This document shows, one piece after another, positions 53,528 to 54,840 of a DNA stretch of 64,000 bases (position 1 is its first letter; the number at the start of each line of letters is the position of its first letter). Source of the stretch: Aequorivita iocasae (GTDB lineage Bacteria; Bacteroidota; Bacteroidia; Flavobacteriales; Flavobacteriaceae); contig NZ_CP068439.1 in NCBI RefSeq assembly GCF_016757735.1, forward strand, positions 2,816,001 to 2,880,000. Direction: 5' to 3'. The position numbers and the translations under genes were made by a program. A model generated the notes under the pieces. That model was not told the origin of the DNA. It searched no databases and saw nothing but the letters and a program-made list of their open reading frames with translations.

Positions 53528-53702
53528 GCATTTGGCAATTGTTTGGCGGTTAATGGAATGTTAAACATCGCGCATTCATTTCCCCAAAAAAATTCGCCTT
53601 AAAAGTTAATATTTCGTTAAATCATTACTTTGCATTACATAGTACTGTAACAATACTTTAATAACTGCGTCTTTTAGATATAACCCAATAAAAACTTTTA
53701 TT

Positions 53703-53789
53703 ATGAGAACTTTAGACAGCAATCAGTTAACAGCAAAGATGAAAACTTCAAGAGCCTATTCTTGGAATTTAAGAAGAAGATTTCACTAA
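53703..53789 (+). CDS. Micropeptide A, 28 residues
   Basis: An open frame of 28 codons, too short for ordinary gene finders. It starts MRTLDSN and ends with AYSWNLRRRFH. It is strongly basic (five Arg, two Lys), has no Cys, no signal peptide and no membrane segment. It is a paralogue of micropeptide B: 14 of 28 residues are identical, and the first seven residues are identical despite three synonymous codon differences. A near -7 box (TTACTTTG, about 53626-53633) lies upstream. Confidence 0.7.
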   Translation: MRTLDSNQLTAKMKTSRAYSWNLRRRFH

Positions 53790-53817
53790 AAATTCAAACA
53801 ATTAAAAATTTATAATC

Positions 53818-53904
53818 ATGAGAACATTAGACAGTAACGAAAAACAACACAGACCTTTAACTTCCAAATCACATCTTTGGAATTCGAAAAGACGTTTTAA
53901 ATAA
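53818..53904 (+). CDS. Micropeptide B, 28 residues, paralogue of A
   Basis: MRTLDSN at the start and HLWNSKRRFK at the end, 28 residues, basic (three Arg, four Lys, two His). Compared with peptide A: identical MRTLDSN, Thr-Ser at 15-16, Trp-Asn at 21-22, and Arg-Arg-Phe at 25-27. Codons for identical residues differ (ACT/ACA, AGC/AGT, AAT/AAC, AGA/CGT), so the protein rather than the DNA is kept. It starts 28 nt after peptide A ends. Confidence 0.7.
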   Translation: MRTLDSNEKQHRPLTSKSHLWNSKRRFK

Positions 53905-53937
53905 CGTATTTCAAAAAAACCAATAAGACAATTAACT

Positions 53938-54072
53938 ATGAAAACCTTACGAAACATTCAAAAGAGGATTAAATGCGGATCACAAAAGCAGCATACGTTG
54001 AACTATCTAAACGTCAATAAGCATTTGTTTGAAGATCCTACAATCAGAAAGACATGCAGATATATTTATTGA
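53938..54072 (+). CDS. Micropeptide C, 44 residues
   Basis: MKTLRNIQKRIKCG starts a 44-codon frame, 33 nt after peptide B. It shares the M-[RK]-T-L start and strong basic charge with A and B, and has two Cys. The similarity beyond that is weak, so it may be a diverged member or an unrelated small gene. A terminator follows 25 nt after its stop. Confidence 0.5.
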   Translation: MKTLRNIQKRIKCGSQKQHTLNYLNVNKHLFEDPTIRKTCRYIY

Positions 54073-54096
54073 GACATATAAAATCAAAAACTGACT

Positions 54097-54131
54097 AAAG
54101 CTGGATTAAAGAAATTTGATTCAGCTTTTTT
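54097..54131 (+). terminator. Terminator after micropeptide operon
   Basis: AAAGCTG (54097-54103) pairs with CAGCTTT (54122-54128), with inner AAA/TTT pairs, followed by a T-run. It overlaps the end of the convergent DUF1456 gene. Confidence 0.65.
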
Positions 54132-54405
54132 CTTTTCCCCTATTCAAGCTGGGTTTTGGTTTAGAAGGTTTTTTCTTTTTGGGCATTGGGCCTCTTAAGT
54201 GAATTACCAACCCATTTAAAAAATTCCGAAGAAACTGATCGCCACATTCCATATATTTAGGATGGTTCTCATTTCTGAAAATGGCGCCCAATTCACTTTT
54301 GGTTACAGCAAAATCAACCAACGAGCATATTTTTACAATATCCTCATCTCGCAGTTTGTGGGCTACGCGTAGTTTTTTCATTATATTGTTGTTTGAAAGT
54401 GCCAT
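54121..54405 (-). CDS. DUF1456-type protein, single repeat
   Basis: The 94-residue protein has NNNIMKKLRVAHKLRDEDIVKI, FRNENHPKYMECGDQFLRNFLNGLVIHLRG and a basic C-terminus. This is the DUF1456 (YehS) pattern. E. coli YehS has two copies of the repeat (about 150 residues), while this protein has one and a lysine-rich tail. The function is unknown. A -7 box is placed upstream. Confidence 0.82.
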   Translation of the reverse strand: MALSNNNIMKKLRVAHKLRDEDIVKICSLVDFAVTKSELGAIFRNENHPKYMECGDQFLRNFLNGLVIHLRGPMPKKKKPSKPKPSLNRGKEKS

Positions 54406-54540: not shown

Positions 54541-54840
54541 ATGAAAACTTCTGAGAAAAATACAAGTAAGCCCAAAGATGAAAAGCTTCCGTACAATCCA
54601 AATGTAACGGAACACGATAAGGATATACTGTCACAAAAAAACATCCATGGGGACGGTGGCGATGACCAGCAGCTAAAAGATCGAAAGGAAAAAGTAGATT
54701 TTGCTGGAAATGATCTAGACGTGCCAGGCCGCGAGCAAGCTAAAAAAAATAAAGGCAATGGCCTTCGCGATGAAGAGAACAAGCTATTCAGTCAAGGTAG
54801 TGACGATAATGAAAGTTTAGAGCAGGATAAACCGCTATAA
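54541..54840 (+). CDS. Small acidic hydrophilic protein, conserved in flavobacteria
   Basis: The 99-residue product is highly polar and without hydrophobic core, so it is probably disordered. It has blocks I recall from flavobacterial homologues: YNPNVTEHDKDILSQKNIHGD, DDQQLKDRKEKVDF, NDLDVPGRE and NGLRDEENKLFSQGSDDNESLE (cited in parts). No function is known. A near -7 box (TATCTTTA) lies about 15 nt before the start. Confidence 0.78.
   Translation: MKTSEKNTSKPKDEKLPYNPNVTEHDKDILSQKNIHGDGGDDQQLKDRKEKVDFAGNDLDVPGREQAKKNKGNGLRDEENKLFSQGSDDNESLEQDKPL

Follow-up and report, generated by a model that had tools for sequence, protein, structure and literature searches.

The window analysed in this work, a stretch of 64,000 nucleotides from Aequorivita iocasae, contains on its forward strand a small operon in which three tiny ORFs (28, 28 and 44 codons, encoding the peptides A, B and C) lie in a row, with gaps of 28 and 33 nt, between a promoter region and an intrinsic-terminator-like hairpin (Table 1). 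These coordinates are as claimed in the initial annotation of the locus, which had also proposed a near -7 promoter box upstream (found as TACTTTGC at 53626-53633), an intrinsic terminator downstream (the 14-pair hairpin with its T-run at 54097-54128) and the absence of any larger gene from the transcript. The operon does stand alone: no larger gene lies ahead of the terminator on the same strand, the + strand genes after C are all beyond it, which leaves no structural gene downstream on the transcript, and the neighbours of A-B-C, one encoding a VTT-domain (DedA-like) protein and the other a DUF1456 protein, are on the opposite strand. The paralogy of A and B also holds, with exactly 14 of the 28 residues common to both and with the silent codon differences at these shared residues present as first listed. 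What the earlier description lacked was a second, putatively ECF-type promoter (53646-53672) and the family-wide occurrence of the unit.

Table 1. Features of the micro-protein operon and of its promoter region (positions in the window).
Feature	Position	Strand	Basis or remark
GTTAA-N6-GTTAA, a repeat ahead of both promoters (copies at 53605-53609 and 53616-53620)	53605-53620	+	177-site profile
P1 -7/-10 box TACTTTGC, TAnnTTGY (SM5, sigma-A-like) type	53626-53633	+	177-site profile and SM5 consensus
Invariant 16-mer ACATAGTACTGTAACA (first base R in the family as a whole)	53637-53652	+	102/299 genomes
P2 -35 element TGTAACA, predicted ECF-sigma type	53646-53652	+	Core common to the GFO_1088/PG0214-family sigma gene
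P2 -10 element CGTCT, at a fixed N15 from TGTAACA	53668-53672	+	Kept at 98% across the 177 sites
Probable region of the P2 start, ATATAA (GTATAA in the family consensus)	53678-53683	+	177-site profile; putative start
28-aa peptide A (MRTLDSNQLTAKMKTSRAYSWNLRRRFH), with a net charge of +6	53703-53789	+	dN/dS 0.20
28-aa peptide B (MRTLDSNEKQHRPLTSKSHLWNSKRRFK), a paralogue of A, with a net charge of +6	53818-53904	+	dN/dS 0.23
Peptide C, 44 aa, akin to the last ORF (43-45 aa) of arrays outside the genus	53938-54072	+	dN/dS 0.10; predicted helix 4-26
Intrinsic-terminator-like hairpin, 14 pairs and T-run, reaching into the convergent DUF1456 gene at its 3' end	54097-54128	+	Hairpin search

The hairpin has a folding energy of -15.1 kcal/mol, and the search for terminator-like hairpins found one where 0.6 were expected. 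Since the DUF1456 gene (54121-54405, - strand) has its 3' end within it, this terminator may serve both the operon and the DUF1456 transcripts. Further downstream, at 54541-54840 (+), there is a 99-aa highly charged ORF, kept in the genus (7 loci), for which no Pfam or NCBIfam matches were found.

Conservation and distribution of the arrays

The operon is kept in 25 of the 27 congeners (the remaining two Aequorivita genomes are without it), with the gene order around it also kept, so that both the homologues and the synteny anticipated in the initial annotation exist. The proposal that selection acts on the peptides themselves is likewise upheld: the pooled pairwise NG86 dN/dS values (0.10-0.23, over 22-26 genomes) were obtained from genome pairs, which are non-independent, and not fitted on a tree, and the alignments of all three ORFs contain silent differences in large excess (pS of 0.45-0.55 versus pN of 0.10-0.18). 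Additionally, the conserved residues of A, B and C are encoded by several synonymous codons among the congeners.

Outside the genus, the 16-mer of the promoter region (RCATAGTACTGTAACA) is found in 102 of 299 Flavobacteriaceae genomes, and a search for the bipartite element (the 16-mer followed by N15-CGTCTNTNNNGTATAA, with up to three mismatches) extends this to 117 of the 299 genomes and to 94 of 236 genera; the reversed controls gave no site in either case. Among 395 Bacteroidota genomes drawn, six contain the bipartite element, all of them from Flavobacteriaceae, and it was not found in the drawn genomes of genus g146 (possibly Flavobacterium). At 172 of 177 distinct sites the 16-mer is followed by one to five tandem small ORFs ending with the Trp/Arg motif described below, compared with 4 sites in the antisense control and 5 in the shuffled control (a stricter motif gives 0 and 0). 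The exceptions are one site where the micro-peptide is present with a longer tail (L214), one array of 29-aa KRRIA peptides, and three sites that precede secreted acidic-repeat proteins. The latter proteins (L116, which is the same as L095, and L137) are 187-188 aa long and secreted, with acidic repeats of the form IELIEIEEEVxLGFDTSKYLPxNFN; one genome has two copies, and no Pfam match was found. Some arrays (L115, L147) are made of identical peptide copies. An extra type of micro-ORF, of ~28-43 aa and with the motif GFGW[NSH], is present in arrays of the 37-aa kind (L096, L118, L135, L138, L140, L142), usually as the first ORF after the 16-mer, and to our knowledge it belongs to no described family.

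The translation signals of the arrays agree with the codon evidence. The context around the start codons, A(-3)/A(-12,-13), is that of flavobacterial genes with efficient translation, with A at -3 in 96% and at -12 in 96% of the first ORFs, versus 37-38% at other ATGs; the later 28/37-aa ORFs have a similar context and the 44-aa ORFs a weaker one (82% and 68%). In F. johnsoniae, ribosome profiling and reporters revealed that A at the -3 and -12 positions raises translation (PMC6847099). The gaps between consecutive ORFs fall in all three frames, which means that the arrays are not one split protein. Coding by the micro-ORFs is thus well supported, we regard it as practically certain that the conserved micro-protein family is real, and the best explanation for the operon is that it represents the Aequorivita copy of a micro-protein system found across Flavobacteriaceae.

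In 180 loci, the recurrent neighbours are a divergent secreted protein (90 loci) and exbD (71 loci), which indicates that the array locus is old and mostly vertically inherited; searches for arrays on plasmids and on phages gave no match in either case. We considered exbD as an operon partner and rejected it: although it follows the array in these 71 of the 180 loci, the gap between the last peptide and exbD (e.g. in L081, L088, L094 and L120) contains a conserved TTATGGTATTGTTTTTGTGA, which, read by eye, looks like a sigma54-like -24/-12 promoter.

The peptides and their known look-alikes

The array peptides are 22-45 aa long, with length classes of 28, 35-39 and 43-45 aa plus minimal forms of 22-24 aa, and have in common a C-terminal core, [ST][KR]xxxW[NSA]xx[KR][RN][YF], a net charge of ~ +6 on average and one Trp each. 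Judging from their sequences, they have no hydrophobic helix and no signal, and the core is polar. In the 209 peptides of 28 aa, W21, R25 and R26 are invariant, partly by construction, given that the Trp/Arg motif was required for their selection, and the same is seen in the Aequorivita alignment, which involved no motif selection. Peptide C differs in having no Trp in nearly all Aequorivita, and it can be aligned, nearly gap-free, with the last ORF (43-45 aa) of the arrays in other genera. The predicted models of the 37-aa and 44-aa peptides consist of helices only, with low confidence for the 37-aa model.

The initial claim that the peptides match no known family agrees with our profile and sequence searches: A and B have no match over the cut-off in Pfam, NCBIfam, PHROGs or the PDB sequences, and the 44-aa peptides have only chance-level matches. 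The claim that they are undescribed is true of the open-licence PMC papers, the annotation of these genomes not being visible to us. The peptides and their tandem arrangement fit no described family that we found; the promoter class is already known.

Two known kinds of operon have a similar layout. The phenol-soluble modulin (PSM) alpha operon of Staphylococcus aureus encodes, in tandem ORFs on one transcript, similar peptides of ~20-30 aa with no signal peptides, PSMs being amphipathic, exported and controlled by AgrA; the arrays described here are alike in their tandem signal-less peptides and differ in being polar and strongly basic, in their putative ECF-type promoter and in having no dedicated exporter nearby. 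Leaderless bacteriocin operons also consist of tandem ORFs for similar basic peptides (~30-45 aa) that have no leader, and this resemblance, together with the reminiscence of the streptide motif in KxxxW and with the ABC-transporter genes located behind the same promoter class (see below), would suit peptides destined for export or processing, whether as signals or in bacteriocin-like or modified form, perhaps leaving the cell via ABC exporters of the same regulon. We consider this quite improbable, because genes for an exporter, for immunity or for modification do not recur beside the arrays, which are strongly conserved and vertically inherited at a conserved locus, with no plasmid match. 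The adjacent immunity or transport genes and the sporadic or plasmid spread that mark bacteriocins were not found, and by eye no radical-SAM maturase was recognised among the recurrent neighbours. Moreover, the Lys that is invariant in streptide-type KxxxW is replaced here by Arg or Asn in some members (position 17 of the 209 peptides is K in 180, R in 22, N in 3, L in 3 and V in 1).

The composite promoter and the ECF sigma factor

The 177-site profile contains, in this order, the GTTAA repeats, TACTTTGY, the 16-mer and, at a fixed distance, CGTCT. The GTTAA repeat is a possible activator site or part of an upstream promoter element. The P1 box TACTTTGY fits the SM5 motif of Flavobacterium psychrophilum, TAnnTTGY (PMC9723704), and P1 transcripts would start near 53638. 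In the aligned loci the stretch downstream of the -7 box is without any variation, even across other genera. Positions 1-15 of the 16-mer are all but invariant in the 177 sites, a figure that is partly due to selection, as the sites were collected with the 16-mer motif and the variants came from the bipartite search. The conservation of the 16-mer exceeds the needs of an ECF -35 element, and a further factor may bind there. The idea of a PadR-type operator was discarded, since the genome has no second exact copy of the 16-mer and its look-alikes differ. Elsewhere in this genome, TTTG...CAAAGTACTTT palindromes similar to the 16-mer, and not matching it, lie on either side of an operon that includes a small winged-helix-like regulator (G000:C1:1973750 and 1974709; L074 and L075).

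The P1 transcript is predicted to begin with an invariant block, as would be expected of a regulatory RNA or leader in which the ORFs are of little importance, the leader being one of the roles suggested initially. Such a role seems extremely improbable in view of the dN/dS values and start contexts of the ORFs, of a leader folding no better than that of shuffled sequences (mean z of +0.22) and of an Rfam search with no match near the threshold (two hits only, far below it and on the other strand). A leader function is also disfavoured by the lack of a larger gene before the terminator in Aequorivita and, elsewhere, by the conserved sigma54-like sequence in the exbD gap.

The assignment of TGTAACA-N15-CGTCT as an ECF-sigma-type promoter is a well-supported prediction. 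Of the six GTAAC-N16-CGTCT sites in the genome, five are intergenic, compared with 1 of 21 at other spacings (Fisher, ~4e-4), while the counts alone show no excess at N16 (6 sites, as many as at N20 and fewer than in the reversed control), so it was gene context alone that separated the spacings. The genome has ten TGTAAC-N16-CGTC sites, every one of them outside long ORFs and ahead of genes. One of the ten is upstream of an ECF sigma gene (G000:C1:3190409-3190912, - strand). Behind this sigma gene come two genes named by resemblance, one anti-sigma-like and one DUF4252-like, and other sites of this class stand ahead of genes for ABC transporters and for secreted or membrane proteins. The sigma factor matches NCBIfam NF058625 (the GFO_1088/PG0214 family) with 226.7 bits, against a cut-off of 130, and has orthologues in 132 of 149 family genomes. 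The same core, with the exact spacing, is found upstream of the sigma gene in 29 of the 30 genomes inspected (0.03 expected from shuffles), which points to that sigma for P2. The ECF-type assignment is also supported by genome G032, in which three further arrays keep P2 with another sequence in place of P1 (see below). Based on this shared sequence, the operon is very probably controlled by an ECF sigma of the GFO_1088/PG0214 (SigCH) family. This control is not one-to-one, given that the sigma also occurs in genomes without the operon and is far more widespread than it.

Feedback regulation, with the peptides binding the ECF sigma, its anti-sigma or the RNA polymerase and so tuning the regulon, would agree with a promoter core common to the operon and to the autoregulated sigma gene, but the large dose and many copies would be unusual in a regulator and the sigma is much the more widespread of the two, making this explanation improbable.

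The SigCH regulon is known from Porphyromonas gingivalis (PGN_0319; NF058625), and P2 has the core, TGTAACA-N15-CGTC, that lies upstream of sigma genes of this family in the 29 of 30 genomes noted above; the gene order sigma, anti-sigma-like and DUF4252-like is also common to Aequorivita and P. gingivalis (PG_0214-0216). In P. gingivalis, SigCH has been linked to hemin use and described as regulating hemin-use genes, and one mutant exposed to peroxide had its sigma operon raised ~8-10-fold (PMC10101095, PMC5607195). The SM6 motif of F. psychrophilum, with a CGT box at -10, was assigned to ECF sigmas, and its set, which includes an ECF/anti-sigma pair, is induced at low nutrients (PMC9723704). 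No micro-ORF array was reported with SM5 or SM6 in that study (PMC9723704), nor was a tiny-peptide array described for the SigCH regulon in the open-licence PMC literature that we found.

Proposed action of the peptides

The mechanism that we propose starts from what the sequences show: a composite promoter (P1, SM5/sigma-A-like, and P2, ECF-type) at the head of a short transcript for one to five tandemly amplified cationic micro-proteins, each with its own start of translation. P2 would be read by the autoregulated GFO_1088/PG0214 (SigCH) ECF sigma, as the shared promoter sequence suggests, so that release of this sigma from its anti-sigma, under envelope, redox or nutrient stress, would lead to transcription of the array and to peptides in quantity. 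Efficient start sites and tandem, sometimes identical copies (as in L115 and L147) would provide a large dose of cationic peptide, the near-identical copies serving to supply it. The peptides would then stay in the cytoplasm and, in what is the weakest step, may act stoichiometrically, via the Trp/Arg core, on a common anionic partner. With the specific target left aside, this reading as a whole (an ECF-controlled, dosage-amplified micro-protein system) appears likely from sequence comparison.

As for the partner, a Trp among Arg and Lys residues in a soluble, signal-less peptide fits best with binding to the ribosome or other RNA, and next with the membrane; the ribosome or RNA is accordingly put forward as a tentative candidate for the target. 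The membrane alternative keeps the ECF control and would have the cationic Trp peptides shield the envelope by attaching to anionic lipids or to a partner in the inner membrane. It draws on that control, on the kinds of gene found at other sites of this promoter class (ABC transporters, secreted or membrane proteins), and on the charge (~ +6) and single Trp of the peptides. We regard it as unlikely for peptides with no hydrophobic helix, no signal and a polar core. Returning to the cytoplasmic target, it is conceivable, with some hesitation, that the arrays represent a new kind of stress effector, in which KxxxW..RRY-core arrays would saturate one conserved target (e.g. the ribosome), the dose being reached via tandem amplification behind a composite housekeeping/ECF promoter that remained near-unchanged as the peptides diversified.

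The family would place conserved proteins, so small that gene callers can overlook them, behind one of the best-conserved promoters of Flavobacteriaceae, which are major marine and soil bacteria. The system would also offer a handle on the little-studied GFO_1088/PG0214 ECF sigma (through its promoter core and candidate regulon), and W21, R25 and R26 constitute a short list of residues for finding the target of the peptides. A natural promoter swap is provided by the extra arrays of one genome (G032; L064, L065 and L066), where the TACTTTG-CATAGTAC block, including P1, is replaced and the GTTAA repeats and P2 are kept.
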